Below, piece after piece: positions 2,270-36,499 of a stretch of 64,000 bases of DNA. The notes beneath the pieces are model-generated. The model was not told the origin of the DNA. It searched no databases and worked only from the letters and a program-made list of their open reading frames with translations. Position 1 is the first letter of the stretch; every line of letters starts with the position of its first letter. This DNA comes from an uncultured Rhodospirillales bacterium (GTDB lineage: Bacteria; Pseudomonadota; Alphaproteobacteria; ATCC43930; CGMCC-115725). The stretch is from contig CAIJOA010000014.1 of the NCBI GenBank assembly GCA_903822185.1, forward strand, positions 1-64,000, given 5' to 3'. The position numbers and the translations under genes are program-made.

Positions 2270-2270
2270 C

Positions 2271-2996
2271 TCAGGAACGGAAATGCTCGACCATGCGGCC
2301 CAGCGCCGCGAGGTCGGTGATCACCAGCCGGTCGCCGTCGCGTTCCAGCAATTTGCGGCGGGTCAGATCGGCCAGGGTGCGGGCCACAGTTTCGCGCGCG
2401 GTGCTGGCCCGCGCCGCGATGGCATGATGGCGCGGTATCGGTTGCAGCACGGCCGTGTTGGGCGGGGAATCGCCCCCGGTTCGGGCTTGGCGCAGCAAAT
2501 CCGCATAAATCCGGTTCTGCGCCGCGAGAGTGCTTAGATCCATGATCCGCGCGCTGGATGCGCGGACGATTTCGGTCAGATGGCGCATCATCAGCATCGC
2601 TGCCTGCGGTTGCAGCGTAAGATATTCGCGAAACACCGATGCGGGCAGCCGCGCCGTCAGTGTGCGGGTGGCGGCCAATACGGTTGCCGATCGCGGCTCG
2701 CCGTCGATCGCCGCCATCTCGCCGAAATAGCCGCCATCCGATAGTTCATCGAACGCGACCTCGCCGCTGCCTTTCAGCGTGTAATTGATAATGCGCGCCC
2801 GGCCTTTGATGATGAAATACACATCGTCGGAAATGCCGTCGCGGCCGAGGATTTCGGCCCGTGCGTTCCACCAATGCCAGATACAACGCTGCTCGTAACG
2901 CTGACGCGTGGCCGCGTCGGCGACCGCGAAAAGATCGACATGCGCCAGGCTTTGCTCAACGACCGGCGGCTTTCGCGGTGTCTTCGACAATGCCAA
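2271..2996 (-). CDS. Crp/Fnr-type cyclic-nucleotide-responsive regulator
   Basis: About 241 residues from a TTG at 2996, preceded at good spacing by GGAAAG. The reading frame is open back to 3257, but that extension overlaps another gene in a different frame and makes the protein too long for the family. The N-terminal beta-roll carries GEMAAIDGEPRSATV, where Glu, Arg and Ser match the cAMP phosphate-binding residues of E. coli Crp (E72, R82, S83). The C-terminal helix-turn-helix has ARETVARTL, matching the R-E-T-V-x-R recognition helix that reads TGTGA. The gene abuts the cyclase. A TTGACT at 3078-3083 could be part of its own promoter, with only a poor -10. Starts at 2990 or 3011 are alternatives. 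Confidence 0.9.
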   Translation of the reverse strand: MALSKTPRKPPVVEQSLAHVDLFAVADAATRQRYEQRCIWHWWNARAEILGRDGISDDVYFIIKGRARIINYTLKGSGEVAFDELSDGGYFGEMAAIDGEPRSATVLAATRTLTARLPASVFREYLTLQPQAAMLMMRHLTEIVRASSARIMDLSTLAAQNRIYADLLRQARTGGDSPPNTAVLQPIPRHHAIAARASTARETVARTLADLTRRKLLERDGDRLVITDLAALGRMVEHFRS

Positions 2997-3136
2997 GAAT
3001 TGCTTTCCCACGAGACCGCGCCGGATGTGTCCGCGCGAATCCGAATGATGTCCGAATGCAATTCTAGTCTCGGCACAAGTCAAAATATCTAAGGAAAAGC
3101 ACGGATATACGCGGTCATAACGATCCGCCGGATTCT

Positions 3137-3412
3137 CTAAGACGGTGAATTCAAAGACGACGCTACTTTGAGGATCAGCGTTGCAACGGCTAAGAGAAGA
3201 AAAGCGATCAAAGACCAAAGCACCCGGCTCGACAGGGTCCGCGCCCAGGGCGCCCAAACCGCCTGGGCATCGGCCAGATGCGGCCAGGCCGCACCGATCA
3301 GCAGCATGACGGCGATACCGCCGAGGAAATCCGCATAAACCGGCCGCGCGACAAGCTGCTTTGCTGGCTTTTTGTTCATCGGATTATCGCTGATAACGGG
3401 ATTGAGCGGCAT
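3137..3412 (-). CDS. Small two-helix membrane protein
   Basis: Up to 91 residues, with two predicted membrane helices: FLGGIAVMLLIGAAWPHLA and VLWSLIAFLLLAVATLIL. The start is uncertain. ATG 3412 overlaps the preceding small gene by 29 bases, while ATG 3379 (protein starting MNKKPAK) lies 4 bases after that gene's stop and gives a typical charged N-terminus of 80 residues. I do not recognise the family. Position between the palindrome at 3610-3629 and the Crp/cyclase pair suggests it is co-transcribed with them and might act at the membrane with the cyclase, which is inference only. Confidence 0.6.
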   Translation of the reverse strand: MPLNPVISDNPMNKKPAKQLVARPVYADFLGGIAVMLLIGAAWPHLADAQAVWAPWARTLSSRVLWSLIAFLLLAVATLILKVASSLNSPS

Positions 3413-5989: not shown

Positions 5990-6928
5990 TCATGGCGCGA
6001 TCAGGCGTGCCGCGGTCAGTTTCGTGCGCAGACGATCCTGTTCGTTCATTGCATCGAGCCACCATTGCAGATCGGCGGTTTTGATCTTCGCCGTCATCGG
6101 GGCCAGCAGCATGGTCGCCGTGACCTCGGGCTTGAGGTTGAGCGTCTTGGTGATGATCTCTTTGGTCTTTTCCGGATTGGCTTCGGCAAAGGCGACGGCT
6201 TCTTCGGTGGCGGCGCGGATCGCGGCCACTTCCTGTTTGTGCGATTCAGCCCAGGCGCGGGTCGATGCGTTGACCAGCGCGGGCACGCTGGTGCCAAGTT
6301 CGCCATAGAAATACGAAAGAATTTTTCCCGAGCCGTCGGCGGCGATCGCGCTCATGAACGGGTCGGGAATGAGAACCGCGTCGAGATTGCCGGCCTTAAG
6401 GACGTTCGGCATTTCGGCATAGGCGATTTCGACGATCGTGATTTCCTTCGGATTGACGCCTTTCAGCACAAGCCAATGCTCGAAAGCGATCTCCGAAATA
6501 CCGCCGATGGTGCTGGTGCCGATCCGCTTGCCCTTAAGGTCGGCCGGGGTGTTGATGTTCGCACCGTTGCGGACGACGACACCGCTATCTTTGGTGCCGG
6601 GCGCAAAAAGCGACAGATTGGTCAATGCGACGAGATCGATCCCGCCGTCCGCCGCTTGGATCAGCGTCGAAGCGCCGACCGTGCCGACCTGCATCGAGTT
6701 AGAGACGAGGCTGGGCACGATCACATTGCCGCCGCGCATCAAGGTCAGCTCGACATCGAGTCCGTGCTTGGCGAAGAAGCCCTGATCCTTGGCGATCCAG
6801 TCCGGCACGTTGCCGTTCACCGCCGTATAGCCGAGGGTGATTTTGTCGAGCGCGGTGGCCGGCAGCGCGGCAACAAACAGGCCGCCGAGAAAGGCCATCG
6901 CCGCGAGCGTTTTATCAATCGGTTTCAT
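5990..6928 (-). CDS. Periplasmic binding protein, NMT1/SsuA-like
   Basis: A 312-residue exported protein beginning MKPIDKTLAAMAFLGGLFVAALPATA, a signal peptide ending near ATA-L. An upstream in-frame ATG (6988) exists, but AGGAAAC sits at correct spacing before ATG 6928. The mature part shows the NMT1/SsuA pattern: ITLGYTAVNGNVPDWIAKDQGFFAKHGLDVEL, then DLKGKRIGTSTIGGISEIAF and a hinge near KAGNLDAVLIPDPF. It is first in the ABC operon and sets its specificity; an organic acid or sulfonate is a reasonable guess, unproven. Confidence 0.9.
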   Translation of the reverse strand: MKPIDKTLAAMAFLGGLFVAALPATALDKITLGYTAVNGNVPDWIAKDQGFFAKHGLDVELTLMRGGNVIVPSLVSNSMQVGTVGASTLIQAADGGIDLVALTNLSLFAPGTKDSGVVVRNGANINTPADLKGKRIGTSTIGGISEIAFEHWLVLKGVNPKEITIVEIAYAEMPNVLKAGNLDAVLIPDPFMSAIAADGSGKILSYFYGELGTSVPALVNASTRAWAESHKQEVAAIRAATEEAVAFAEANPEKTKEIITKTLNLKPEVTATMLLAPMTAKIKTADLQWWLDAMNEQDRLRTKLTAARLIAP

Positions 6929-7027
6929 GGTGTTTCCTGTCCCCTGATCGCGGCCCGCGTGCATCTTTTTGTCCGCCGTCATACCCATCGCCGAATGGTA
7001 AAATGGCGCTGCGCTGTGAGGGCGGTA

Positions 7028-9088: not shown

Positions 9089-9453
9089 TCTGCCGGTTCA
9101 TGAGTATTCGCGCCAAAACTCTGTAGAGGAGGTAAATCGGCCGCGATTCGGACGGCAGGGAACCCCGTTCTCCTTATTCGGCTCTGAACGTTGTCAAATA
9201 CAACGGTTGGTATCAGTATAGATTCAAATACATAGACCTTCCGGGGGCGGTTTCAATGTGCCCCGGCGGGCTGATACTGCAGAGACGCGGTGCGTCATGG
9301 GGAATAAATTGAGCCGGTTGCCTGGAAAGCCGTACGGGGTAGGGATTCCTGTAACCGATCCCTGCGATTTCCCGGTTCGCCATGCTTCCTTCGGTGCTCG
9401 ACGTTGGTGATACGTCGCATCCTTTGGCCCGCACTTCGCGGATCGGTATATCG
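9089..9453. other. 365-base non-coding gap ahead of glycan locus
   Basis: No convincing gene. It holds an AGGAGG at about 9126-9131 with no suitable start, a TTGTCA at 9191-9196 with a TATAGA-like element about 20 bases on, and TCAAATAC repeated directly at 9195-9202 and 9224-9231 (29-base period). A promoter and operator for the plus-strand glycan genes could lie here, at low confidence. Confidence 0.35.
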
Positions 9454-10533
9454 ATGACCCGCACGTATGTCATCGCGGAGGCGGGCGTCAATCACGATGG
9501 GTCGGTCGATGACGCGCTTCGGCTGATCGATGCAGCGAGCGATGCCGGCGCGGACTGCGTCAAGTTTCAGACGTTTCGGGCGGATGCGCTGGCGTCGCGG
9601 TTTGCGGAAAAGGCCGCTTATCAGAAATCCGCGACTGATCCCGCGCAATCGCAGCAGGAGATGTTGCGGCAGCTCGAGCTTCCGGCTTCGGCTTATCCGC
9701 GGTTGATCAAGCGGGCGCAGGAACGCAGGGTTGAATTCCTTTCGACGCCGTTTGATCCCATGTCGGTCGATTTCCTGATCCGGGACCTCGGTATGAAACG
9801 GATCAAGATCGGTTCGGGTGATATGAACAACGCCCCGATGCTGTTGGAGGTCGCGAAGGCCGGTTGCGAGGTCATCCTTTCGACCGGCATGGCAGATCTC
9901 GCCGAGGTCGAGGAGGCGCTATCCGTTCTTGCCTTCGGGTATGCCGCCAATACTGAGCAACCTTCGCGCGCGCGTTTCGCGACAGCATGGCAACGATCTG
10001 CCGTACGTGCGTCCTTACAAGGCAAAGTAACGCTCCTTCATTGCACCAGTGCATATCCGGCACATCCGGAAACCGTCAATCTGAAGGCGATGACGACTCT
10101 CGCCGAACATTTTGGTCTCCCGGTCGGCTATTCGGATCATACGCTCGGCATTGAAGTGTCCATGGCAGCCGTAGCCCGCGGCGCTGTGATGATCGAGAAA
10201 CATTTGACGCTGGATGTCGGCCGGTCAGGTCCTGATCATGCCGCCTCCCTTGAGCCTCGCGCATTTGCGCAAATGACCGCGGGTATTCGAATCGTCGAGG
10301 CGGCATTGGGCGATGGGCGCAAGATTCCCAACGACGTCGAACGCTCAACGGCGACGGTCGCGCGGAAAGCATTGGTTACCGCACGGGCGATCGAAGCGGG
10401 TGAGAGCTTCACGGCGGAAAACATTGCGTTGAAGCGACCGGCCCACGGCATGGCGCCGATTGCTTTTTGGGATGTCATCGGCAAAACGGCCAAACGTGCT
10501 TACGGTCCCGATGAAGCGATCGATCCGCCATGA
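9454..10533 (+). CDS. neuB: NeuB-type nonulosonic acid synthase (copy 1)
   Basis: A 359-residue synthase starting MTRTYVIAEAGVNHDGS. It condenses phosphoenolpyruvate with a hexosamine-derived aldose to give a nine-carbon 2-keto-3-deoxy sugar acid (sialic, legionaminic or related). Canonical motifs are intact: KFQTFRAD, STPFDPMS, KIGSGDMNNAPML, the metal His in LLHCTSAYPAHPETVNL, the second metal His in GYSDHTLG, and MIEKHLTLD. A C-terminal SAF (antifreeze-like) domain spans about residues 300-355. The neighbouring PtmE-like gene hints at legionaminic acid. Of the three NeuB-like proteins in this locus it is the only fully canonical one. Confidence 0.93.
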   Translation: MTRTYVIAEAGVNHDGSVDDALRLIDAASDAGADCVKFQTFRADALASRFAEKAAYQKSATDPAQSQQEMLRQLELPASAYPRLIKRAQERRVEFLSTPFDPMSVDFLIRDLGMKRIKIGSGDMNNAPMLLEVAKAGCEVILSTGMADLAEVEEALSVLAFGYAANTEQPSRARFATAWQRSAVRASLQGKVTLLHCTSAYPAHPETVNLKAMTTLAEHFGLPVGYSDHTLGIEVSMAAVARGAVMIEKHLTLDVGRSGPDHAASLEPRAFAQMTAGIRIVEAALGDGRKIPNDVERSTATVARKALVTARAIEAGESFTAENIALKRPAHGMAPIAFWDVIGKTAKRAYGPDEAIDPP

Positions 10534-10576
10534 TCGATTTGAAAATGCATATTAAAGTGCACAGAATGATTGTGTT

Positions 10577-11623
10577 ATGAAGAAAATCGACGAGATACTT
10601 ATTCCGCCGACCATGCAGGTTCTGCAGGCGCTCGATCGGTTGGACCGCGGCGCTGCGCAGGCCGTGCTTGTGGTGGATGAGGGCGGTCATCTTCTCGGCG
10701 TTGTCACCGACGGGGATGTTCGTCGCGGTCTTCTGCGTGGCGTGACGTTGGATCGGCCCGTTTCCGATGTGATGAATACGACGCCGCTCACCTGCGCCGT
10801 GAATACGAGCCCGGAAATGGCGCGGGTCTTGATGCAGGAACATACGATCCATCAGCTTCCCGTCATCGACGCGGCGGGACGCGTAACCGATCTGATCACG
10901 ATCGATTCGACTCTTAAGACGATACACCAGGATACGACGGTAATTCTCATGGCCGGTGGGCTTGGCAGCCGCTTGCGTCCCCTCACCGATTCGACGCCAA
11001 AACCGCTCTTGCCGATCGGCGGGCGGCCGTTGCTTGAAATAACGATCTCGTTGCTGGCGCGTCAGGGTTTCGAACGGTTTTTAATATCGCTCAATTACAA
11101 AGCGGAAATGTTCCGCGACTTTTTTGCCGACGGGGAACGCCTCGGTGTGCAGATCGACTATATCGAGGAAAGCGAGAAGCTTGGAACGGCAGGTGCCTTG
11201 CGGCTTTTGCCGGAACGGCCTTCCTCGCCGTTTATCGTGATGAACGGGGATGTTCTCACCACGCTGGATGCGCGGCGTCTCATATCGTTTCATCGCGAAC
11301 AACGGGCGGTCGCGACCATGTGCGTGCGGGAGTACGAATGGCGCATACCTTACGGCGTTGTGTGCATCGATAACGGTCGTTTGGCAGGGTTCGACGAAAA
11401 GCCATCGCGAAGCGAATTCGTCAATGCTGGAATTTATGTACTCGCGCCCGAAGCACTCGACTATATTCCGGCATCGGGCGCGGTTGATATGCCGACGCTT
11501 TTTCAGGCTATTGGGCAAAAGGTCGAAAGCCCGTCGATCTATCCCTTGAGAGAGCACTGGCTCGATGTCGGCCATCTTGCTGATTTGCAACGTGCGCAGG
11601 ATGAGGTTCATCTTTTTGTATAA
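10577..11623 (+). CDS. CBS-domain sugar-1-phosphate nucleotidyltransferase (PtmE-like)
   Basis: 348 residues: two CBS motifs (about 1-115, with VVDEGGHLLGVVTDGDVRRG and LPVIDAAGRVTDLITID) fused to a nucleotidyltransferase domain (about 120-348) with VILMAGGLGSRLRPLTDSTP KPLLPIGG-type start and VMNGDVLTTLD. This architecture is that of Campylobacter PtmE, a glucosamine-1-phosphate guanylyltransferase feeding GDP-linked intermediates into legionaminic acid synthesis. It directly follows NeuB copy 1. Other sugar-1-phosphate substrates are possible, and the later legionaminic dehydratase and aminotransferase genes are not in this window. Confidence 0.87.
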   Translation: MKKIDEILIPPTMQVLQALDRLDRGAAQAVLVVDEGGHLLGVVTDGDVRRGLLRGVTLDRPVSDVMNTTPLTCAVNTSPEMARVLMQEHTIHQLPVIDAAGRVTDLITIDSTLKTIHQDTTVILMAGGLGSRLRPLTDSTPKPLLPIGGRPLLEITISLLARQGFERFLISLNYKAEMFRDFFADGERLGVQIDYIEESEKLGTAGALRLLPERPSSPFIVMNGDVLTTLDARRLISFHREQRAVATMCVREYEWRIPYGVVCIDNGRLAGFDEKPSRSEFVNAGIYVLAPEALDYIPASGAVDMPTLFQAIGQKVESPSIYPLREHWLDVGHLADLQRAQDEVHLFV

Positions 11624-11652
11624 TCGTTCGGCGACGGCAATCGGTAAGCTTG

Positions 11653-13437
11653 ATGGATATCGCTAAGGGTGGCGTCGCGCCGGCGACGCGCCGCGACCTT
11701 TATGTCGCGTTTCGAAACGCCCTCTTGTCGGGCAGCCAGTACGATTGGACGCTGCCGGAACATGTAGATCAGTCCGCGGAGGCAGAGCTACCGCTTGTTA
11801 CCGTGACCAGGCTGGTCGAAGATCGTGCCAATTATAAGCCGGACGCTCGGGATAATATCCGCACTTATCTCGCAGCGATTGCGGCCAAGTCCGGCGCAAA
11901 AATCCGCGCATCGACCCTCGCCGGCAATCCAGGCCGGTTGATATCCGGCGGCGAAGCGGCGCCGCGTATCAGTGACGACTTCATTTATTTCGGCAGCAAC
12001 GGCGGCACGGACGGCGAAGCGTCTCTCGCCATCGACACGGATGCCGGAGGATGTGCGGTTCTGCACTGTCTCGCCTATATCACGGCGACCGCTGCGGATC
12101 ATTTTTACGTTTCGCTGGAAGACGCCCGTTCGGATTTGTCCGAAGCCATTCGCATTGGATCGGGTGGCGTGACGATGGTGCGGGATTTTTACGCGCTGGA
12201 CATCGGCGGGCGCACGCCGCGTCTTTATTCGCTCGCGGTGGGTGGCGGGTTTTTTTCCGTCTATATCAACGGCGCGCTGGTCTGGCGCCGAAAACGGCCG
12301 GATGCACAACGCCCTGCCGGACTTGCGTTTAAGCTTTTGGGCCGTACGTCGAGCGCGAGCACGGATGGCGGTGTCTTCGAATACGAGTTCTGGTCGCTCG
12401 ACGCGCCCTTCACCGGGTTTGACACTGACGAGCAAGCACATCTCGAGGCCTGGGCAGGCAGCCTTGCCGCCAAGGCAGCGGTTTTTCCGTTGTATCAACT
12501 GACACGTTCGATCAGCGATTTTTCGCTGGATACGAATGAGGCTGCTGTCATTCGCGCGATGACCGAGGCGATGGGCACCATCAAAGGTCATCCCGATTGG
12601 ATGTTTCAGACGCTGGAAAAGGCGCTGTCGCCCGAAGGACGCGCACGCTGGACGTCGGTTGCCCGCGGCTTGACCCCGGCACCGATCATTGATGTCGAAA
12701 ACGTCTCGGTCAGCTTTTCACGTAACCCTTCGGCCGATCTATCCTTGTGGCGGCAACTGCGGCGACGGCCAACCAACCATTTTCCGGTTTTGAGCGGGGT
12801 CAATTTTCAGGCCTATCCGGGCGATGTCGTCGGTGTGATCGGTCATAACGGCGCCGGGAAAAGTACGCTGTTGCGCACGCTCGCCGGCCTCGTGCCGATC
12901 AAGACCGGCAAAATCCTGGTGCGCGGGAATCACATGCTGCTGCGGGGCGGGCTTGGGCTGCGGCTCGAATTGAGCGGCCGCGAGAACATTGTCAGCCTCG
13001 GCATTTATATGGGGCTGTCCTATCGGCGGATCATGGCGCTGGTCGATGAAATCATCGATTTTGCCGAACTTGCCGATCACATCGACAAGCCGGCGAAATA
13101 TTACTCGGACGGGATGCTGTCGCGGCTCGTCTTCTCGACAGCGACCAGCGTTTCTCCCGAAATCCTGATGCTCGACGAGTTGTTGGGGGCGGGCGACATC
13201 AAGTTCCAGGACAAGGCGCAGAAACGGCTACGCGAATTCATGAACCGCTCCAAGCTGGTGATTGTCGTCACGCACAGCGTCGCCTTCGTGCGAGAGCAGT
13301 GCAATAAGGCGATGGTGCTGTCGAACGGGCGGCAGATTTATTTCGGCGAACCCGTGCAGGCTGTTTCGACCTATCTGGCCGATCTCCATCTCTCGCCGGC
13401 CGATGCCGGCAAGATCGACGCCACGACGCATTTCTAG
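11653..13437 (+). CDS. Polysaccharide-export ABC ATPase with extra N-terminal domain
   Basis: 594 residues, about twice the size of KpsT. The C-terminal part (from about 343) is a KpsT/Wzt-type ATPase: Walker A GHNGAGKST (about 397), signature YYSDGMLSRL (Asp in place of the usual Ser/Gly) and Walker B ILMLDELLGAGD. The first 340 residues are unlike KpsT and include, at about 108-250, beta-rich sequence with RLYSLAVGGGFFSVYINGAL reminiscent of laminin-G/concanavalin-like sandwiches. Wzt proteins carry a glycan-binding domain at the C-terminus; here one may sit at the N-terminus. ATG 11653 follows an in-frame TTG. The permease gene comes 19 bases later. Confidence 0.88.
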   Translation: MDIAKGGVAPATRRDLYVAFRNALLSGSQYDWTLPEHVDQSAEAELPLVTVTRLVEDRANYKPDARDNIRTYLAAIAAKSGAKIRASTLAGNPGRLISGGEAAPRISDDFIYFGSNGGTDGEASLAIDTDAGGCAVLHCLAYITATAADHFYVSLEDARSDLSEAIRIGSGGVTMVRDFYALDIGGRTPRLYSLAVGGGFFSVYINGALVWRRKRPDAQRPAGLAFKLLGRTSSASTDGGVFEYEFWSLDAPFTGFDTDEQAHLEAWAGSLAAKAAVFPLYQLTRSISDFSLDTNEAAVIRAMTEAMGTIKGHPDWMFQTLEKALSPEGRARWTSVARGLTPAPIIDVENVSVSFSRNPSADLSLWRQLRRRPTNHFPVLSGVNFQAYPGDVVGVIGHNGAGKSTLLRTLAGLVPIKTGKILVRGNHMLLRGGLGLRLELSGRENIVSLGIYMGLSYRRIMALVDEIIDFAELADHIDKPAKYYSDGMLSRLVFSTATSVSPEILMLDELLGAGDIKFQDKAQKRLREFMNRSKLVIVVTHSVAFVREQCNKAMVLSNGRQIYFGEPVQAVSTYLADLHLSPADAGKIDATTHF

Positions 13438-13456: not shown

Positions 13457-14317
13457 ATGAACAGCATCGACGATAACGCGGAACTGTCGAAGTGGATGGA
13501 GATCACGCCCGCCGGGCGTCGAACCAGTTCGGTGACGCATGATGAGCGCTGGCGGGATTTGCACATGCATCTCTGGCAGGTCGCGTTCATGGTGCGCTGG
13601 AACCTGATGGAGAAATCCTTCGGTCGGGCGCTGGGCCGGGCCTGGATCATTCTCGATCCGATGATGCAGGCGGCTCTCTATCTTTTCCTGCTGATCCTGA
13701 TTTTTCGCGTCAACGATTCGGATATCTCTTTCACTTTCCTCCTCGTGACGCTGACCTTCTGGCGCCTTCATGCCAATCTGCTGTCGGCGGCACCGACGCT
13801 TTTTACCTCGAAGGGTCCGGTTCTGCAGCAGAGCAGTTTCCCCGCCCGATTGATCGTCTATGAATTCATCCTCACCGAGGTCGCTTTCTTCTGCATCAAT
13901 CTGGTGGTGGCGCTGGGCGTTATTCTGGCGTTCGGTGTCCGACCCAATCTTTTGTGGCTTCTGGTGCCCGTCATTTTTCTGATCCAGCTGGTCTTCAGCA
14001 GCGCGCTGGTCATTTTCGTCGGATTGCTGGGCGCGGTCGTGCGCGACGTCGGCCCGGTTCTGGTCTTCTTCGTGACGGTCTGGTTTTATCTCTCGCCCGT
14101 GATTTACGGCGTTTCGCGCGTCCCGGCGTCGCTTGAGCGTTTCATGTATCTCAACCCGTTTGCGATCATCATGCCGGCTTATCAGGCGATCTTCTTCGGC
14201 GGGGTGATGCCGTCGGCCTGGGCCCTGGGCGCCGTGTTCGTCAGCTCGTTGATACTGCTGGTTCTGGGCTTGCGCCTCCTCAGCCATGCGCAGCATCGGA
14301 TTTATCGATTTCTTTGA
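13457..14317 (+). CDS. Polysaccharide-export ABC permease (KpsM/Wzm-like)
   Basis: 286 residues of the ABC-2 type. A cytoplasmic N-terminus (about 60 residues) precedes ARG-type coupling sequence KSFGRALGRAWIILDPMMQA and six hydrophobic segments, ending AYQAIFFGGVMPSAW and a last helix. Such permeases flip capsular or O-antigen polysaccharide chains across the inner membrane with a KpsT/Wzt ATPase, which is encoded immediately upstream. Its presence shows the locus makes an ABC-dependent surface polysaccharide rather than only flagellin glycans. Confidence 0.92.
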   Translation: MNSIDDNAELSKWMEITPAGRRTSSVTHDERWRDLHMHLWQVAFMVRWNLMEKSFGRALGRAWIILDPMMQAALYLFLLILIFRVNDSDISFTFLLVTLTFWRLHANLLSAAPTLFTSKGPVLQQSSFPARLIVYEFILTEVAFFCINLVVALGVILAFGVRPNLLWLLVPVIFLIQLVFSSALVIFVGLLGAVVRDVGPVLVFFVTVWFYLSPVIYGVSRVPASLERFMYLNPFAIIMPAYQAIFFGGVMPSAWALGAVFVSSLILLVLGLRLLSHAQHRIYRFL

Positions 14318-14397
14318 TGCCGGCTCGCGCGCCAACTTGATGGGGCTTGCGTACATCGGTATCGTATTTCGCGGAATATCGTTTGAATGGGTGTCAT

Positions 14398-15471
14398 ATG
14401 AGCAATGTTCGGATCGGCGCTAAAGATGTCGGCGTCGGTCAGCAGGCTTTCGTCGTTGCGGAAATGGCTTGGTCGCACGATGGATTGGTCGAAAAAGCGC
14501 GCGATATAATCGCGGGCGCCGCGCGCGCAGGCGCCGACGCGATCAATTTTCATTTGACCAGCCTACCCGATTACATGGTGCCGTTTTACGGCGCGGGGCC
14601 TGGCCGGCTTTCGGGCGGGAACGATACCCTCGACGTTTATCGCTATCTCGAAAAAATCAATCTTACCTTCGAGGTTTGGCCCGATCTTGTCGCCTTTGCC
14701 CGTCAAAGCGGTTTGGCGGTCAGCATCATGTGCAACGACGAGCCGAGTGTCGCTTTCGCGATCGCGAATGTCGCGCCGGATATGTTGATGATTCATCCGT
14801 CGTGCGTTGGCGATGAGCGGCTTTTGCGCAGCATGGCCGCTTACGGCCGGCCTTTCGTGATCTACACCGGCGGGCTGCATCTCGGCGAAATTGAAAACGC
14901 CGTTCGGTGGGCGACCCTCGAAGGGAATAATAATCTCGTTCTACAGCACGGCTTCCAGAGCTATCCGACGGCGATTGCCGACAACCACCTTCGCGCCATT
15001 CGAACGCTGAAGTCGCAGTTCGGGTTTCCTGTCGCTTTCGCCGATCACACGGATGGCGACGATCCCATGGCGATGATCGTTCCGTTGTTGGCGGTGGCGA
15101 TGGGGGCGGATGTCGTCGAAAAGCACATCACCCACGACCGGACGCTGAAAGGCGAAGATTTCGAAGCTGCCTTCTCGCCCGATCAATTCGCTGTTTTCGT
15201 CGATCGTTTGCGTCAGTCCGAAAGGAGCTTTGGGCAAAGCAGCTGGCAACCGCTCTCCGAGCGGCAGTTGAAGTATCGTTCGGTGGTTCGCAAACGCGCT
15301 GTCGCGGCGGCCCCGATCGCCGCCGGAACCAAATTGACCCGTGACATCATCACCTTCAAACGGGCCGATATCGGCCTTTATCCGGAAGAGATATCCAATC
15401 TCGATGGAAACATTGTGGTGGCACGCGATCTGGAAACCAATGCCCCGATTGTTTGGGAGGTGTTGCGTTGA
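14398..15471 (+). CDS. Divergent NeuB-like synthase (copy 2)
   Basis: 357 residues from ATG 14398 (MSNVRIGAKDVGV). The NeuB barrel and C-terminal SAF domain (about 295-357) are recognisable: AEMAWSHDG, metal His in LQHGFQSYPT, second metal His in FADHTDGDD, VVEKHITHDR and KGEDFEAAFSPD. But KFQ is replaced by NFHLTS and KIGSGD by a segment reading LMIHPSCVGD, so two substrate-phosphate lysines are missing. It probably uses an unusual acceptor. The next three genes (cytidylyltransferase, oxidoreductase, class III aminotransferase) overlap or nearly abut and look like a dedicated sub-pathway. Confidence 0.85.
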   Translation: MSNVRIGAKDVGVGQQAFVVAEMAWSHDGLVEKARDIIAGAARAGADAINFHLTSLPDYMVPFYGAGPGRLSGGNDTLDVYRYLEKINLTFEVWPDLVAFARQSGLAVSIMCNDEPSVAFAIANVAPDMLMIHPSCVGDERLLRSMAAYGRPFVIYTGGLHLGEIENAVRWATLEGNNNLVLQHGFQSYPTAIADNHLRAIRTLKSQFGFPVAFADHTDGDDPMAMIVPLLAVAMGADVVEKHITHDRTLKGEDFEAAFSPDQFAVFVDRLRQSERSFGQSSWQPLSERQLKYRSVVRKRAVAAAPIAAGTKLTRDIITFKRADIGLYPEEISNLDGNIVVARDLETNAPIVWEVLR

Positions 15472-16232
15472 ATGCAACAACGGCCGTCTTTTTATCGGTG
15501 CGTGATAAAGCCACTCGTCTTCCCGGCAAAGTCGTGCACCCGATTTGCGGTCGGCCGGCGATCGAACATCTGATCGACCGCGTCAAGCAAGCGCACGAGC
15601 CGGACATGGTTGTGCTTACGACCTCAACGCATCGCGGCGACGACGGGCTTGAAGCGATTGCCAAGAAAAATGGCATTCGTTGTTTCCGCGGCAGTGAAGA
15701 CGATAAGCTCGTCCGCTATCGCGATGCCGCTTTCGCGCATAGCGTCGATTTCTTTGCCGTGGTGGATGGCGACGATCTCTTCGCCGACTCCGTGTTCATC
15801 GACCAGATCGTCGGGACATGGAAGAAAGAGCGCGGCGACTATATCATCGTCGATGGCCTGCCTTTGGGAGCGACGGCTTTCGGCGTCGATCGCCAAGCGT
15901 TGATAAAGGTGATCGACCGCAAGGCCGAAGACAACACCGAGGTCTGGGGTGGCTATTTTACGAATTTCGGCGGATTGCAATGCCGGTTTCTATCGCCGGA
16001 AAACTCAAACTTTGCGCGGCCCGAATGGCGCATGACTCTCGACTATCCCGAGGATTTGGCTTTTTTCTGTGCGGTCTTCGATGCGCTTTATCGACCCGGA
16101 CAGGTCTTCAGTTTTGACGAGATCGTGCGTTTTCTGAACGAGCATCCCGAGGTCGCCGCTCTCAATCGGGACAGCCAAAAGAAATATGAAGAGAACCTGG
16201 CGAAAGCGGCGCCGGTTCGATTCGATTCGTAG
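15468..16232 (+). CDS. SpsF-like cytidylyltransferase
   Basis: 254 residues with a TTG start at 15468 that overlaps the stop of the preceding synthase (TTGA) and is preceded by GGGAGG at 7 bases. The N-terminus VFLSVRDKATRLPGKVV matches the nucleotidyltransferase loop of the SpsF/KdsB/NeuA group (usually QARMGSTRLPGKV), with RDKATR substituting for the common Arg-Met-Gly-Ser. VVDGDDLFAD carries metal-binding Asp residues. It likely activates the product of synthase copy 2 as a CMP-sugar. A second, more NeuA-like enzyme is at 21187. Confidence 0.82.
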   Translation: MNATTAVFLSVRDKATRLPGKVVHPICGRPAIEHLIDRVKQAHEPDMVVLTTSTHRGDDGLEAIAKKNGIRCFRGSEDDKLVRYRDAAFAHSVDFFAVVDGDDLFADSVFIDQIVGTWKKERGDYIIVDGLPLGATAFGVDRQALIKVIDRKAEDNTEVWGGYFTNFGGLQCRFLSPENSNFARPEWRMTLDYPEDLAFFCAVFDALYRPGQVFSFDEIVRFLNEHPEVAALNRDSQKKYEENLAKAAPVRFDS

Positions 16233-16243
16233 GACTCGGTGTC

Positions 16244-17254
16244 ATGAAGTTTCTGATTGTCGGTCTCGGCTCGATGGGTAAGCGGCGAATTCGCAACTTG
16301 CGCCGCCTCAATGCCGGAGAGATTGCTGGGTTCGATCTTACGGCCGAACGCCGCGATGATGCCGCGAAAACCTATGGAATCAAGGTCTTTGACGATTTAT
16401 CGGATGCGCTGTCGCGCTTTGCCCCTGACGCTCTGGTTGTTTCGACACCGCCCGACCTACATCTGGGTTTCGCCATCCGCGCCCTCAAAGAAGGCAAGCA
16501 TGTATTTTGCGAAGCGGGAACCACGACGGAAGGAATTCCTGAAGTGCTGGCGCTTGCCGAACGCGGTCGGCTCGTCGCGGCGCCTTCCTGCACGATGCGA
16601 TTTCAGCACTCCATCAAGAAAATGAAATCGCTGCTGACAGCCGGAACGATCGGCAAGATTCTGGCTTACACGCATCACTCGGGCCAATATCTGCCTGATT
16701 GGCATCCCTTTGAAGATTATCGCGCTTTCTACGCTTCGCGCCGTGAAACGGGTGCCTGCCGCGAAATCGTCGCCTTCGAATTGACGTGGCTGAACTGGCT
16801 CATGGATGCTGAGGTCCGCACTGTCACCGCGCTCGTCGGCAAGGTCAGCACGCTCGACTGCGACATCGATGATGTCTATCAAATGGCGCTGCGCTATAGC
16901 AACGGTGCGCTCTGCCATCTGATGATCGACGCGATCTCCCGTGTCGCGACCCGTTCGCTTCGTATTCTCGGCGAAACCGGGACTCTGGAATGGAACGCCG
17001 GGGCGCGGCTTCTGCGTCATTACGATGCTGCGACACAGGTTTGGACTGATTATCCGGAGCCAGTGCCGGTTATTGAACCCGGCTACTCCGGAATGTCTGC
17101 CGAAGGCATGTATGATGAAGAAATGGACGCTTTCGTGCGTGCGTGTCGTGGCGAAGCGTCCTATCCGCACAGCTTTGCCGAGGATCTGCAAATCTTGACG
17201 ACTCTCGTCGATGGCGAGAAAGAATCGGCAAGACTCATCTCAAACAAGGCTTGA
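16244..17254 (+). CDS. Gfo/Idh/MocA-type sugar oxidoreductase
   Basis: 336 residues. The N-terminal Rossmann fold begins MKFLIVGLGSMGKRRIRNL; the family's EKP-type loop appears as GKHVFCEAGTTTEGI. Position 12 bases after the cytidylyltransferase and overlapping the aminotransferase (TGATG) points to NAD(P)-dependent oxidation or reduction of a sugar that is then aminated. In oxidoreductase-aminotransferase pairs of this kind the keto sugar passes from one to the other; the exact substrate is unknown. The catalytic Lys of EKP is Glu-Ala-Gly here, which is unusual. Confidence 0.87.
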   Translation: MKFLIVGLGSMGKRRIRNLRRLNAGEIAGFDLTAERRDDAAKTYGIKVFDDLSDALSRFAPDALVVSTPPDLHLGFAIRALKEGKHVFCEAGTTTEGIPEVLALAERGRLVAAPSCTMRFQHSIKKMKSLLTAGTIGKILAYTHHSGQYLPDWHPFEDYRAFYASRRETGACREIVAFELTWLNWLMDAEVRTVTALVGKVSTLDCDIDDVYQMALRYSNGALCHLMIDAISRVATRSLRILGETGTLEWNAGARLLRHYDAATQVWTDYPEPVPVIEPGYSGMSAEGMYDEEMDAFVRACRGEASYPHSFAEDLQILTTLVDGEKESARLISNKA

Positions 17255-18564
17255 TGCAGATGGCTGATACTCCGTCCCGCTACAACAACAGCACCCATCG
17301 CCTGATCCCTGGCGGCGCCCATACTTACAGCAAAGGCGATGACCAGTTTCCGGCCAACGGGCCGCGGTTTCTCAATCGGGGCGAAGGAAGCCGCGTCTGG
17401 GACGAGACCGGCCGCGAATTCCTCGATTGGACTTCCGGGCTGCGGACGATGTCGTTGGGCTATGGGGTGCGGCCGGTGCTCGATGCGGCCATCGCACAAA
17501 TGGAGCTGGGGTCGAATTTCGGCCGCCCCAGTTCAATCGAAACGGAATTCGCGGCTGAACTGATCGATGTCATTCCCTGTGCGGACATGGTGAAGTTCGC
17601 GAAGAACGGTTCGACGGTGACAACGGCCGCGGTCAAGCTCGCCCGTGTCTATACAGGGCGCGATTATATTGCCCTGTGTGCCGATCATGCTTTCTTTTCC
17701 TATGACGACTGGTTCATCGGTGCGACGGTGATGAACGCTGGCGTCCCCAAGGCGATCCAGGATCTGTCTCTGACATTCCGCTACAACGACATCGCGAGCG
17801 TCGAGGCACTTTTCGCGAGTCATCCGGGGAAAATCGCCTGCGTCATTCTCGAAGCCGCGACGATGGATCATCCCGCGCCTGGCTTCTTCGAAAAGCTTGA
17901 GGAAATTTGCCGCCGCGAGGGCGCGGTCCTCATTCTCGACGAAATGATCACCGGCTTCCGGTGGCATCTGAATGGCGCGCAAAAATATTATGGCATCACG
18001 CCAGACCTCGCGACTTTTGGAAAAGGCATGGCCAATGGTTTCGCCGTGTCGGCGCTGGTCGGCCGTCGCGAGATCATGGAACTCGGCGGAATCGATCATG
18101 ACCGCGAGCGCGTTTTCTTGATATCGACGACGCATGGGGCCGAAAATCACGCGCTGGCGGCTGCGCGCGCAACGTTGAAGATCTGCCGCGAAGAAGGCGT
18201 ACAGGATCATATGTGGGCTATCGGCGGCAGCCTCATCGCGGGCCTCAATGAAGCGGCGAAAGAAGCGGGTCTTGCCGAGGTCTTCGTGGCCGGTGGTGTG
18301 CCCTGTAGTCCTTGGTATTCGCTGACCGCGCCCAAACCCGAGAACTCTCTGCCGTTGCGGACCTTGTTCCTTCAGGAAATGGCCGAGCGCGGCGTCATCG
18401 CCAATTATCTGGCGCCCAGCTGGAGTCATCGCCAAGCCGATGTCGATCGCACGGTCGAGGCCGCGCGGGGGAGTCTTCCGGTCGTGAGCCGGGCGCTGGA
18501 AGATGGATATGAAAAGTACCTGAAAGGGCCTTCGATCAAGCCCGTCTTCCGTCCATTCAACTGA
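17254..18564 (+). CDS. Class III (GSA-aminomutase-like) aminotransferase
   Basis: 436 residues from ATG 17254 (alternative 17260), overlapping the previous stop as TGATG. The fold of glutamate-1-semialdehyde aminomutase is clear: RLIPGGAHTYSKGD, KFAKNGSTVTTAAVKLAR, ILDEMITGFRWHLNGAQ with the PLP-stacking Asp, and FGKGMANGFAVSALVGRRE carrying the PLP Lys. Enzymes of this family occur in nonulosonic acid and spore-coat-type sugar clusters rather than in haem synthesis when placed like this. It would add an amino group to a sugar ketone made by the adjacent oxidoreductase. Confidence 0.9.
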   Translation: MQMADTPSRYNNSTHRLIPGGAHTYSKGDDQFPANGPRFLNRGEGSRVWDETGREFLDWTSGLRTMSLGYGVRPVLDAAIAQMELGSNFGRPSSIETEFAAELIDVIPCADMVKFAKNGSTVTTAAVKLARVYTGRDYIALCADHAFFSYDDWFIGATVMNAGVPKAIQDLSLTFRYNDIASVEALFASHPGKIACVILEAATMDHPAPGFFEKLEEICRREGAVLILDEMITGFRWHLNGAQKYYGITPDLATFGKGMANGFAVSALVGRREIMELGGIDHDRERVFLISTTHGAENHALAAARATLKICREEGVQDHMWAIGGSLIAGLNEAAKEAGLAEVFVAGGVPCSPWYSLTAPKPENSLPLRTLFLQEMAERGVIANYLAPSWSHRQADVDRTVEAARGSLPVVSRALEDGYEKYLKGPSIKPVFRPFN

Positions 18565-18595
18565 GCTTCGGGCGCGGCACCGAACATTTCATGCC

Positions 18596-20539
18596 ATGAC
18601 GGCGGCGCCTTCGACCAACAATACCCTCCTGAGAATTCTAGGACGGCAGTATCTGTCCTTTTACATTCTGTGGCGCGGCCTGCATTTTGTTGCGCTGCGT
18701 ACTAGCGGTTGGCTTGGCGGAGGCCGGCAACGGATTGCCGCATTACGGGCGATGGTCGAAGCTGCAAAAGATCAGACCTACGTCATTCTGAATCCGGCGT
18801 CGCGCCCGACCGATCTCCGGCGATGGGTTTCTGGCATTGCGCGCGGTGACAATTATCGCTTCGTCGCAACGGGCCTGGCGCGTGATCGGCTGGGGCTTCC
18901 GATCGACCGCACGATCTTGCTCGATGACGCGCGTATCGTGCCGGAAGCCGATATGGCGATTCATGCGGCGTGGCAGGCGCTGACGGAACACCGACGCGAT
19001 CACTTTGCCAGCCCCGACGAGGCCGAGGCGATGAGGATGCTGGAAGTCGCTTATACCGGCGTCGAGATTGCCTTGCGTCGGCTCGATTGGACCTTGGATC
19101 GGTTACCGGCGCACGACCGTGCGCCAATTTTCGTCGTGCCCGACGAGGTCGATGCGGCGAGCATCGTGCGTTTGATCGAGGGGCGGGCAACGCGCGGTGC
19201 GCCCGCGGTTGCGTTTCCGACGAGCGTCGAATCATCGCCCCGCCGTCGCGATGGTGTTACTCTCAGGGCTTGTTGCGCGGTGTTACGCCATCTCCAGGAG
19301 CGACGCGCCGCTCGCTTGATTCGTCGTTGCCACGACACTGTTCAATTGATCGTCGTCGATACGCAGCCCGATACGCCTTATTGGCATGCCGCAATGGCGC
19401 TGGTGGATGAGGGGAAGCGGCGGGGCCGGCACTCCTTAATACTGACGTCGTTTTGGCAGGTTGTGCTGCGGTGCAGGCACCGTGGCGTTCTGCACATGAT
19501 TCTCAACGTCGCGCTCTTGCCGTGCGGTGATCGCCGGATTGTTGCCGCTCGGAACCAGCATTTTTTGGATCGGGCTCGGTTACTATGCGGGCGCTTTGCC
19601 GGTGATCCAGCCTCGGCGTCGGCGCTGGGTTGGCTTGCGTCGTCTCATCGCGCAATCGATCTCGATGCTGCTTGGGCCCTTCGCGATTTTGCGCGAAGGC
19701 TGGTGGCGCGGCTTGGCAAGGCGAAGCTTTTCGTCATGCCGCATTGGGGTACGCTGGCGGAACTCGTTGGGATGGAATTCCAGGCCTATGGTGGTCAGGT
19801 CGTCAGCGCACCGGTCGTCACCGTGTCGGATAAGCCCGGATCGATTATCGGCTGGGAGAACATCGACACGATCGCCGCCTATGGCCGCCATTGCGTCGAT
19901 AGCTTTTGCAGCGCAGGCTACCGGGAAAGCCACTTGCCGATAACCGGCAATATCGGCTTCGACAAACTGGTGACGGCAAGCCGGGATGTGGCTGCAGCCC
20001 GCAACCGGGTCGAGGGCCTGCTGCGCGAGAGTTTGCCATCGAATGTGCCTTTGATCGCGATCGTGACCAGCGGCATCGATCGGCAAGAAGAAAAATGGGT
20101 TTCCGTTCTGGCAGATATGTCTAGGGACGGCCATTTCGTCGTCATTCGTAAACTGCATCCAAGTCTCGTCTATGCACAGCCGGAAATCAGGGGCTCCATC
20201 CTTAAGACGCTCAATGCGGGCGCGGTCGAAGACCTTCTCGCGATTGCAGATGTGGTCCTGACGGACAATTCGACGGCGGGTGCACAAGCTGTGCTGATGA
20301 GTAAGTCATTGGTCGTCGTCAATTTCACCGCCAAGCCGTTTCCGGCGAACGATTACGCCGAGGCTGGTGTTGCGCTGCTTGTGTCCGACATCGGCATGTT
20401 GGAGAGTACGATTCTTGCTGCATTGGCCGGCCGAAAACCGGAGCCGTCTGCACAAGCCGCGTTCATTGGCGATTACAACGGCCCCAATGACGGACATGCG
20501 GCGCGCCGGGTGTGGGACCTGCTGGAGGATGCTCCATGA
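18596..20539 (+). CDS. Large GT-B-like protein, putative glycosyltransferase A
   Basis: 647 residues. The N-terminal half is not recognised. The C-terminal half reads like a GT-B glycosyltransferase or CDP-glycerol-transferase fold: FVMPHWGTLAELVG, ITGNIGFDKL, a basic VIRKLHPSLVY, DVVLTDNSTAGAQAVLMSKS and an end motif NGPNDGHAARRVWDLL. The same segments recur in the protein at 29804 (VGSVNFDK, VIKVHPAD, FNGPCDGK) and, more weakly, at 26364 (FGPSDGNSAAR). The end motif also resembles the YGDG-RI end of NeuC. It overlaps the following methyltransferase (ATGA). Polymerising or capping the exported glycan is a reasonable guess. Confidence 0.7.
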   Translation: MTAAPSTNNTLLRILGRQYLSFYILWRGLHFVALRTSGWLGGGRQRIAALRAMVEAAKDQTYVILNPASRPTDLRRWVSGIARGDNYRFVATGLARDRLGLPIDRTILLDDARIVPEADMAIHAAWQALTEHRRDHFASPDEAEAMRMLEVAYTGVEIALRRLDWTLDRLPAHDRAPIFVVPDEVDAASIVRLIEGRATRGAPAVAFPTSVESSPRRRDGVTLRACCAVLRHLQERRAARLIRRCHDTVQLIVVDTQPDTPYWHAAMALVDEGKRRGRHSLILTSFWQVVLRCRHRGVLHMILNVALLPCGDRRIVAARNQHFLDRARLLCGRFAGDPASASALGWLASSHRAIDLDAAWALRDFARRLVARLGKAKLFVMPHWGTLAELVGMEFQAYGGQVVSAPVVTVSDKPGSIIGWENIDTIAAYGRHCVDSFCSAGYRESHLPITGNIGFDKLVTASRDVAAARNRVEGLLRESLPSNVPLIAIVTSGIDRQEEKWVSVLADMSRDGHFVVIRKLHPSLVYAQPEIRGSILKTLNAGAVEDLLAIADVVLTDNSTAGAQAVLMSKSLVVVNFTAKPFPANDYAEAGVALLVSDIGMLESTILAALAGRKPEPSAQAAFIGDYNGPNDGHAARRVWDLLEDAP

Positions 20540-21171
20540 ACGGTTTGAAAGAGGAAACACCCCGCGACCGGTTGTGGGACAACTGGAATAGTCGCGGCGG
20601 TCCTCGTTACCCCAACGAGAAAGTCGTCCAATTCACTTTCCGCCATTTTCCGGCGAGCGCGCGTGCTAGTACGCGAACGCTGGATTTAGGGTGTGGCTCG
20701 GGAATCAATTCTTGGTTTTTGGCGCGCGAAGGATTTCCCGTCGTCGGTACGGATATATCCTCGATCGGCCTCGCCAATGCGGGCGACCTTCTCGGAAATG
20801 CTGATTTGGCCGGCAGTTTCGTCGCAGCGGATGCGTGGGCGCAGCCATTTCCCGATGCTTCGTTCGACTATATCCTGTGCATCCGCATGCTAGAACTTTT
20901 GCCGGAGCCGACGCAGCAAGAAGAACTCGTCGCTGAATGTGCGCGCCTGCTGCGCGCCGGCGGCAGGGCCATGTTTTTGTTCGCGTCGCCTTTGGACTAT
21001 GGTTGCCAGCATCCGGAGATGAGCTACTGCCGCTTTTATCCGCCGAGCGAACAGCGTGTCGCTGAATTATTCGGCGGAAGATTTTCGCAAGTCGATATCG
21101 ATATTTATCAAACGACCTACGAAAATCGAAAGTTCGCCGAGCATAATTTTCTTATAACGACGCAAAAGTAA
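20536..21171 (+). CDS. SAM-dependent class I methyltransferase
   Basis: 211 residues from ATG 20536, overlapping the preceding stop as ATGA. Motif I is TLDLGCGSGINSWFLAREG, followed by acidic VVGTDIS and FPDASFDYILCIRMLELLPE, typical of Methyltransf_11 proteins acting on small molecules or sugars. Given the neighbours it may methylate a hydroxyl or amino group on the surface glycan. The substrate cannot be read from sequence. Confidence 0.87.
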   Translation: MNGLKEETPRDRLWDNWNSRGGPRYPNEKVVQFTFRHFPASARASTRTLDLGCGSGINSWFLAREGFPVVGTDISSIGLANAGDLLGNADLAGSFVAADAWAQPFPDASFDYILCIRMLELLPEPTQQEELVAECARLLRAGGRAMFLFASPLDYGCQHPEMSYCRFYPPSEQRVAELFGGRFSQVDIDIYQTTYENRKFAEHNFLITTQK

Positions 21172-21186
21172 TTTCCGGAAAACGGC

Positions 21187-21921
21187 ATGGCCCGATCGAA
21201 TCCCATCATTGCTTATATCCCGGCCAAGGGCTGCTCGCGTGGTCTGCCGAACAAAAACCTCGCCTTGCTCGCCGGCAAGCCGCTGGTCGAACATACGATC
21301 GAGTTCGCCTGCACAGCACATTTGTTCGATGCGATCTATCTCTCCACCGATTCGCCTGAAATTCGAGCGATCGGGCAAGCGCATCAAGTGCGTGTACTGG
21401 ATCGGCCGGTCGATCTGGCGTCCGATACGGCACGGGTTGCCGATGTGCTGGCCCATGATCTCAAGGCCATCAAAGAGGATATTCCCGACCTCGCGCTGAT
21501 CGCCTGCCTCATTCCGACATCGCCTTTGCGACGTCTCCAGGATTTGAATGCCGCGATCGACCTGCTTGATGCCCATCCGGACGCTCCGAGCGTTGTCAGC
21601 TTGAGCCTTTTGCCGTTTCCACTGGCGCAAATTATGTCCATGAATGACAAGACAAAAACCATTTCGGCGCCGTTCGGCCTTGAAGGCATAACGACGCAAT
21701 CTCAACGGCAGTCGCACCCGACCTTTCACTATCCGAACGGCGCGATTGTTGTCATCCGAACGGCAAGTTTCGAACAGTCTCAGGCTTTTTATTTCGAGAA
21801 TGCGAGCGTCGGCCTGCCGCTCGACCCCATAAGCAGTATCGATATCGACTCAAGCGCCGATCTGGCCCGCGCGGAATTCGAACTCCGGAGCCGGAACTTT
21901 GGTCATGGGAAAGACCTCTAA
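21187..21921 (+). CDS. neuA: Acylneuraminate cytidylyltransferase (NeuA-like)
   Basis: 244 residues. The CMP-sialate synthetase signature is present as IPAKGCSRGLPNKNLALLAG (usual: IPARGGSKGLPxKN), with later LSTDSPEIRAIG and SIDIDSSADLARAEF. It activates a nonulosonic acid with CTP before transfer. Sited 15 bases after a methyltransferase and ahead of NeuB copy 3, it could serve copy 1 or copy 3. Cytoplasmic, Mg-dependent. Confidence 0.92.
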   Translation: MARSNPIIAYIPAKGCSRGLPNKNLALLAGKPLVEHTIEFACTAHLFDAIYLSTDSPEIRAIGQAHQVRVLDRPVDLASDTARVADVLAHDLKAIKEDIPDLALIACLIPTSPLRRLQDLNAAIDLLDAHPDAPSVVSLSLLPFPLAQIMSMNDKTKTISAPFGLEGITTQSQRQSHPTFHYPNGAIVVIRTASFEQSQAFYFENASVGLPLDPISSIDIDSSADLARAEFELRSRNFGHGKDL

Positions 21922-22033
21922 GGGCTTCTGAGTCGCTCTCGAGTCTTTACTCGGTTCCGGTGCGCTTCTAGCATTGAGGAACCTACAATCTAAGCGCCGT
22001 TCACTATGCCGCGAATCGAACAAGGCTTTTGAT

Positions 22034-23146
22034 ATGTCGAACCGGAATGCAATACGCATTGGCAATGCAGAAGTCGGCAATGGAGGCGCGACGTTCGTTG
22101 TCATCGAACTGGGCGTAACGCATGGCAATGACGAGGAACTGGCCGCGACCATGATTCGCGAGGCGAAGCGGGCTGGCGCGGATGCGGTAAAATGCGAGGT
22201 CATCAATCCCGATCGTCTTGTCGCTGCAGACTATCGTGATCGCCTCGAATACAGCTATGTCGCTTATTCGGGCAAAAAGGTCGTCGAGAATTATTATAAT
22301 CTCATCCGCCAGGTCACGATGCCGCTCGAAATGCTGGCGCGATTGAAACGCTATGCCGACGAACTACAGATGCCGTTCTTTGGAACGGCCTTCGATTTCG
22401 AGTCGGTGGATTTTCTCAAATCGATTGGAAGCTGTGCGATCAAACTGGCCTCGCCCGAAATCGTGCAATTTCCGCTGTTGGATCATGCTGTTCGTTCCGG
22501 CCTTCCTGTCCTGCTGGACTCCGGCAAGGCGACCACGGTCGAGATCGGCGCCGCTGTATCACGGGCGCGTCTTCAGGACGGGGCAGCCGTGGTGGTGATG
22601 CATAATCCTTCGGGCTATCCCGCGGCGGATAAAGACGTCCATCTTCGCATGATCCCGACCCTGCAGAACGCGTTCGACGTTCCCGTCGGATTATCTTGTC
22701 ATAGCCGGGGTTCCAGCGTGAGCTTCGCTGCAGTCGGTATCGGTGCCGATGTGATCGAAAAGCCTGTGACGGACGACAACACGCAGGATGGCGACGAACA
22801 TATTTTCTCCCTGAATATCGGCGAGATCGCGCCGTTCGTCGCGACGATCCGGCAACTGGATCTGGCAAAAGGAATGGCGAACCGCGATCCAGAATTGGCG
22901 CTGGAAACCGATCATCAGCGGAATACCTACCGCCAATCGCTCGTTGCCGTTCGAGATATGAAAGCCGGGAATCGGATCACGCGGGAAGATTTTCGGTTCG
23001 CTCGGCCCGGCTGGGGCATCCTCGCCGCCGATGGAGAAAAGGCGATCGGAAGAACCATCATCCGCTCTATTCGCGCAGACCATACCATTCACTGGCAAGA
23101 CCTCGCGCCTGCCGATGCCGTACCTTCAAACAAGGCGAAGCCATGA
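22034..23146 (+). CDS. Divergent NeuB-like synthase (copy 3)
   Basis: 370 residues from ATG 22034 (MSNRNAIRIGNAEVGN). NeuB motifs are shifted: IELGVTHGND, VKCEVIN (Lys kept, Phe-Gln lost), GTAFDFESVDFL, IKLASPEI (Lys kept), metal His in VMHNPSGYP, second metal His in GLSCHSRG, then VIEKPVTDDNTQDGDEH where canonical enzymes have EKH. A SAF domain closes the protein (about 310-366). Metal ligands are retained, so activity is likely, but with a different acceptor from copy 1. It overlaps the PIG-L deacetylase by ATGA, suggesting a substrate or product that is de-N-acetylated. Confidence 0.83.
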   Translation: MSNRNAIRIGNAEVGNGGATFVVIELGVTHGNDEELAATMIREAKRAGADAVKCEVINPDRLVAADYRDRLEYSYVAYSGKKVVENYYNLIRQVTMPLEMLARLKRYADELQMPFFGTAFDFESVDFLKSIGSCAIKLASPEIVQFPLLDHAVRSGLPVLLDSGKATTVEIGAAVSRARLQDGAAVVVMHNPSGYPAADKDVHLRMIPTLQNAFDVPVGLSCHSRGSSVSFAAVGIGADVIEKPVTDDNTQDGDEHIFSLNIGEIAPFVATIRQLDLAKGMANRDPELALETDHQRNTYRQSLVAVRDMKAGNRITREDFRFARPGWGILAADGEKAIGRTIIRSIRADHTIHWQDLAPADAVPSNKAKP

Positions 23147-23811
23147 AAGTGATGGCGATTGCCGTTCATCCTGATGACGAGACGTTGGGATGCGGAGGGA
23201 CGTTGCTCAAGCATATGATGGCCGGTGATTCGCTACATTGGGTCATCGCAACCGAAATGAACCCGAACGACTATTCGTCCGCCGCGCGAGCGCGCCAGCA
23301 ACAACAAGTCGATGACGTTTACAAAAGCTATCCTTTCAGCACACTCGACTGGCTACGGCTGCCGACGACGCGCATCGAAACGCTTTCTCTGAACGGCATC
23401 ATCGGCGAGCTCGAATCGTCGATCGATCGAATTCGTCCCGACATCGTTTATGCGCCGTTCTATGGGGATTCACATTCGGATCATCGCGTGATCTTCGATG
23501 CCTTGATGGGGATTTTGCGGCCGACCTATATGCTGCCGCGGGGCGTGCGAAAGGTTCTGTCCTGCGAGGTCATGTCGGAAACGGAAGCGGCGACACCGGG
23601 TGTCAGGCCGGCGTTCGTACCGAACTTGTTCGTCGATATCAGTGCGACAATTGAACGAAAGCTCGAACTCTTTTCGCTTTATCAAACGGAAGTACATCCA
23701 GAACCTGGCCCGCGCAGTCTTTCGGCGATCCGGGCGCAGGCACGGTTTAGGGGCGCGACGATTGGGGTGCCTTATGCGGAAAGCTTCGTAACGCTTCGGG
23801 AAATAGCCTGA
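23143..23811 (+). CDS. PIG-L/LmbE-family deacetylase
   Basis: 222 residues. The zinc motif HPDDETLGCGGTLLKH is near the N-terminus, with the later His in YGDSHSDHRVIFDA. PIG-L enzymes remove N-acetyl groups from sugars such as GlcNAc conjugates. Overlap with synthase copy 3 and proximity to NeuC and WbqC suggest it frees an amino group on a nonulosonic acid precursor or product so that another acyl group can be added. Confidence 0.9.
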   Translation: MKVMAIAVHPDDETLGCGGTLLKHMMAGDSLHWVIATEMNPNDYSSAARARQQQQVDDVYKSYPFSTLDWLRLPTTRIETLSLNGIIGELESSIDRIRPDIVYAPFYGDSHSDHRVIFDALMGILRPTYMLPRGVRKVLSCEVMSETEAATPGVRPAFVPNLFVDISATIERKLELFSLYQTEVHPEPGPRSLSAIRAQARFRGATIGVPYAESFVTLREIA

Positions 23812-23822
23812 ACCGCCGTACG

Positions 23823-25180: not shown

Positions 25181-25184
25181 GGCG

Positions 25185-26348: not shown

Positions 26349-26363
26349 CGATCGGGCGAGTTC

Positions 26364-34239: not shown

Positions 34240-34334
34240 CGGTTTCATCAGGAATGGGCGCCCCATTGTTTGACCCCATCGCCGTCGGCGTTTAAATGTC
34301 GATGGGCAATGATGGGGAAATGAGGGGGTCGTCG

Positions 34335-35339: not shown

Positions 35340-35450
35340 TCACCCGTTGAAAGGCACGCTGAAACAGGGTGACGGTTTTGCTGGCAAAAGCCGGCTTTGA
35401 TCGATCAAACTATCGCCGGCTCAATCAATCGGCGCGTTGAAGGTAGTGTG

Positions 35451-36488: not shown

Positions 36489-36499
36489 CGCGCTTTATC

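Follow-up and report, generated by a model that had tools for sequence, protein, structure and literature searches.

A Polysaccharide-Export ATPase with an N-Terminal Extension of No Detectable Kinship in a Nonulosonic-Acid Gene Island

The 64-kb window, meaning the whole stretch of DNA that was analyzed, carries a complete gene for an export ATPase with an N-terminal extension (11653 to 13437, + strand; one open coding frame; 594 aa). The extension is what is new here, and the ATPase itself belongs to a known group. The explanation that we tentatively favor, and consider quite possible, is that the gene belongs to a Wzm/Wzt-like exporter in which a lineage-restricted N-terminal domain of about 345 residues is an accessory module for substrate recognition or docking, replacing the C-terminal domain.

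Results

The extension is part of one coding frame with the ATPase. The open frame runs from 11650 to 13437 (+) as a single, continuous coding frame from end to end. Translation likely starts at the ATG at 11653, which is preceded at a distance of about 5 bases by GGTAAG, a weak ribosome-binding site. With codon log-odds trained on the neighboring genes, each 50-codon block of this frame scored above zero, and the five other frames scored lower. Blocks within the extension had log-odds of 0.19 to 0.31, and its codon score of −1.06 is within the span of the neighboring genes. By this measure, the front half is real coding sequence. The sequence-only reading had put some 340 residues ahead of the ATPase, which was borne out (about 345, in frame), and the string that it quoted, YSLAVGGGFFSVYINGALV, is in the ORF at residues ~192 to 210.

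The two halves differ in composition. Third-position GC is 0.66 in the extension, 0.76 in the ATPase, and 0.77 in the permease; the extension and its biosynthetic neighbors, which resemble each other at 0.62 to 0.66, lie below both ATPase and permease. At four-fold sites, GC is 0.75 in the extension versus 0.87 in the ATPase (p = 0.009). This shift across the junction is a weak fit to two parts with different histories. It would also suit a recent and functionally neutral fusion, in which the ATPase gene became joined to an unrelated one and the protein copes with the addition, as would the occurrence of the fusion in one genome only and a same-genus transporter that begins at the ATPase proper. 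However, the 345 codons are still open and have ordinary codon usage, the donor gene is seen nowhere else either, and inspection of the junction gave no clear sign of a start from which the ATPase alone could be made. We regard a neutral fusion as quite unlikely.

Judged by its sequence, the ATPase half is a complete, ordinary polysaccharide-export ATPase of the Wzt/TarH type. Pfam, solved-structure, and family alignments define an ATP-binding cassette at 12688 to 13377 (+), residues ~346 to 575. The Pfam ABC_tran match spans residues 381 to 510, related solved ATPases align with residues ~372 to ~575, and when family members are aligned, the fold starts at ~346. The best solved-structure match is TarH (6jbh, 1.1e-41), and RfbE, Wzt, and TagH also match, as do galactan and teichoic-acid exporter families; scores are below the NCBIfam equivalog cut-offs. 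The catalytic motifs are all intact (Walker A at 397, signature YSDGM at 484, Walker B at 504, D-loop, and H-loop at 540). Among seven candidates scored from its own genome, it is the sole ATPase of this type at E ≤ 1e-32.

The gate helix of such exporters, located between ATPase strands 1 and 2, is thought to meet the lipid-linked substrate (PMC6379404). Here, the strand 1-2 loop (residues ~356 to 377; 12715 to 12780; SRNPSADLSLWRQLRRRPTNHF) is Arg-rich and as long as the gate-helix loop of relatives. This is the length found in Wzt and TarH, not the short one of KpsT, and therefore "Wzt/TarH-like" is the better label. Of the earlier designation as a KpsT/Wzt-type export ATPase, the polysaccharide-export ATPase stands, but the KpsT part does not fit the loop length. 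The loop lies only about 10 to 15 residues past the fusion point, so in sequence the N-terminal domain would be a near neighbor of the entry site. Wzt relatives have a conserved central tyrosine in this loop, for which alignment revealed no evident equivalent here, and so the loop's bearing on a lipid carrier is weak.

The C-terminal tail beyond the ATPase is about 20 residues, and the 594-aa protein has no Wzt_C domain after the ATPase. PF14524 (Wzt_C) had no match above its cut-off in the whole genome, the assembly of which is 95% complete. Therefore, this is an exporter without a recognizable carbohydrate-binding domain of the known kind.

The extension itself (residues 1 to 345; 11653 to 12687, +) has no detectable relatives. 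None turned up in its own genome or, by HMM scoring, in 61 relatives or in 385 class and 398 phylum genomes (overlapping sets), and tblastn found none in plasmids or phages. Also negative were exact-peptide scans covering 84,980 species as well as viral contigs; such scans reach close relatives only and would let diverged ones escape. There was no match at useful significance in Pfam, NCBIfam, PHROGs, or PDB sequences. Two apparent relatives were rejected as chance matches. One (L003) adjoins unrelated coding sequence, and the other (H51) is beside a type I secretion operon, with an alignment that spills from the ATPase into the extension.

We also searched with the ATPase part for other extended exporters. 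At E ≤ 1e-32, this added 122 ATPases, spread over 104 other genomes. The sample consisted of 385 alphaproteobacterial genomes, with hardly any coverage of other classes and phyla. Nine of the 122 are in open frames long enough for such an extension (575 or more), and all nine candidates were rejected, the front part being the upstream permease gene in the wrong frame. Transporters from genomes of the same family and of the same order are likewise ordinary, with no N-terminal extension. In the same genus, the ATPase starts directly after the permease gene. Given these 122 ATPases and the same-genus transporter, the extension is unique within the sample. Relatives of the whole transporter, sought via the ATPase, the permease, or the NeuB-like neighbor, were only distant, ordinary ones. 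The sequence-only reading had proposed looking for the same domain order in other export loci, and none of the 122 ATPases has it; its view that an N-terminal extension on an export ATPase is unusual was upheld, with no other extended relative in the genomes searched. Because the fusion is known from one genome only, conservation cannot be used as functional evidence. We found no published precedent for an N-terminally extended ATPase in the open literature, although one may have been described. The census most pertinent to modules of this sort is reportedly that of Mann et al. (2019, Glycobiology), cited in PMC11231755.

The highest 19-residue hydropathy is 1.3 in the extension versus 2.6 in the permease. 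The extension has no stretch resembling a membrane helix, and since it has no membrane segment it is presumably cytosolic. Its layout is probably one of helical flanks (about 1 to 90 and 256 to 345) around a Gly-rich, possibly beta-rich middle (91 to 255). Hydropathy and propensity scales weakly favor helix/sheet/helix. AlphaFold, run without homologues, gave a pLDDT of 34 for the whole protein and 31 for the middle part. Both runs fit flank helices and middle strands, which at pLDDT 31 to 34 is a hint at most, and a fold search with the middle-part model (pLDDT 31) gave noise, as was to be expected. We consider a beta-rich middle between helical flanks plausible.

A more specific proposal is that the extension is a glycan-binding beta sandwich (LamG/ConA-like) that recognizes the finished polymer, which would be a special form of the recognition or docking view. 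The Gly-rich middle does contain strand-like strings (FFSVYINGALV and VFEYEFWSL), its model is all-strand at very low confidence, and the gene is in a glycan locus and has no C-terminal sensor. However, no LamG/ConA-like or other lectin-like profile matched in Pfam, NCBIfam, PHROGs, or the PDB, even at E 10, and the label "laminin-G-like" given to this region earlier is not confirmed. The sole echo is of another family: about 20 residues, GGGFFSVYINGALVWRRKR, resemble an Rdx/SelW hairpin at E 0.008 to 0.1 (TIGR02174, E 0.008, below cut-off). This is the same string that prompted the laminin-G idea, and the hairpin-like string around YSLAVGGGFFSVYINGALVWRRK (12224 to 12286, +) has this weak Rdx/SelW-type likeness. 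GGGFFSVYINGALVWRRKR fits a beta hairpin and has nothing LamG-specific. With the fold search giving noise as well, we find a glycan-binding sandwich doubtful.

Downstream of the ATPase is a gene for a 286-aa Wzm/KpsM-like permease (13457 to 14317, +; ABC2_membrane, PF01061, 3.4e-9). It has weak NF050109 and NF050053 matches, and its relatives are at 21 to 29% identity. Nonulosonic-acid (sialic-acid-like) genes flank the ATPase on both sides, from about 9.4 to 33 kb. Upstream are a NeuB-type synthase (N-acetylneuraminate synthase equivalog) and a CBS-nucleotidyltransferase (9382 to 11623, +). The downstream part (14347 to 29845, +) includes two NeuB-like proteins, two CMP-sugar synthetases, Gfo/Idh, class III aminotransferase, PIG-L, and WbqC proteins, methyltransferases, a 2-epimerase, glycosyltransferase-like proteins, and an MptE/Maf-like protein. 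In total, the island from 9382 to 29845 has three NeuB-type synthases and two CMP-sugar synthetases, which suggests more than one nonulosonic acid or two-step use.

Two further roles for the extension can be weighed against this gene content. It might be a protein-docking scaffold, holding glycosyltransferases or terminating enzymes at the exporter and making no contact with the glycan itself. The many assembly enzymes encoded in the island are consistent with this, as are, weakly, the probable helical segments on both flanks, but the extension matches no known interaction-domain profiles, and we think a pure scaffold unlikely. Alternatively, it might be an enzyme, fused to the ATPase, by which the glycan is modified or trimmed ahead of export. 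In ABC-dependent glycan assembly, diverse fusions of catalytic modules are common (PMC11231755). However, there was no enzyme-family match to the extension, and no recognizable catalytic motif was noticed in it, which leaves a fused enzyme very improbable.

A second copy of the extension was considered in an 824-aa protein encoded in the island (26364 to 28838, +). The rhythm of the two is alike, with 8/1000 in a shuffle test, but NeuB and an adenylate cyclase, also encoded in the window, score higher, and for this reason the 824-aa protein was withdrawn as evidence. As a separate observation, residues ~200 to 325 of this protein are an orphan stretch with a strand-like rhythm (GTVMEARLRW...YRLELRGALSRLYVDGTFVLEL) and no profile or PDB match. 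Further along, the protein bears a weak resemblance to proteins of surface-polysaccharide biosynthesis (TIGR04396).

Elsewhere in the window, three NMT1/THI5-like substrate-binding proteins are encoded side by side (34296 to 37516; two + and one −), and a fourth secreted protein, NMT1/THI5-like by appearance, is at 5990 to 6988 (−). An outer-membrane usher gene (48587 to 50899, +; PF00577, 5.8e-34) has no recognized chaperone-usher set near it in the regions examined. A CHASE2-adenylate/guanylate cyclase adjoins a Crp-type cyclic-nucleotide-binding regulator at 320 to 3257 (−).

Discussion

The reading that we favor, an accessory recognition or docking module, draws on what is known of related exporters. 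The sensor of capped O-antigen systems is fused to the ATPase C terminus; it recognizes the terminal sugar and moves when ATP binds (PMC9445017, PMC11231755). The carbohydrate-binding domain recruits the glycan and works even in trans (PMC9445017), so it does not have to be attached at the C terminus. It is this in-trans sensor, together with the loop of gate-helix length near the fusion point, that leads us to an accessory role for the extension. The gene product would serve as ATPase subunit in a Wzm/Wzt-like (type V) ABC exporter, and the exported substrate may be a nonulosonic-acid-containing glycan, probably undecaprenyl-linked. Where capped-O-antigen exporters have a carbohydrate-binding domain at the C terminus, this one would instead have an unrelated, cytosolic domain at the N terminus. 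This extension could bring the glycan, or its finishing enzymes, to the ATPase beside the gate-helix loop. The lipid carrier, and any binding or gating role of the extension, are inferred.

A stronger form of the proposal is that the extension is a new and unrelated glycan-recognition domain, with quality control exerted from the end opposite that of described exporters. We consider this somewhat doubtful. In capped-O-antigen exporters as described, the quality-control domain is at the ATPase C terminus (PMC9445017, PMC11231755). If the N-terminal domain does the same job, then this motor has acquired glycan proofreading at least twice, and where the sensor lies with respect to the gate can be asked as a design question that is open to testing. 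If the extension only docks enzymes, then it is an example of assembly and export coupled in one polypeptide.

Three known systems bear comparison. The closest solved ATPase (6jbh) is from the TarGH/TagGH wall-teichoic-acid exporter, which also has a loop of gate-helix length. However, its ATPase has no N-terminal domain, and its substrate is a Gram-positive one. The KpsMT capsule exporter likewise exports polysaccharide by an ABC transporter that lacks a C-terminal carbohydrate-binding domain, and the permease here weakly matches KpsM. However, KpsT has no gate helix (PMC11041684), whereas the present protein has a loop of such length and an N-terminal part. The Wzm/Wzt exporters of E. coli O9a and Aquifex aeolicus share the ATPase fold, the motifs, the gate-helix-length loop, the ABC-2 permease partner, and the glycan locus, and they also have an ATPase with an extra domain of unusual kind. 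They differ in where that domain is and what it resembles: here it is N-terminal and has no sequence kinship with Wzt_C, and only about 20 residues follow the ATPase. The gene order also differs, being ATPase then permease here and permease then ATPase in the relatives examined.
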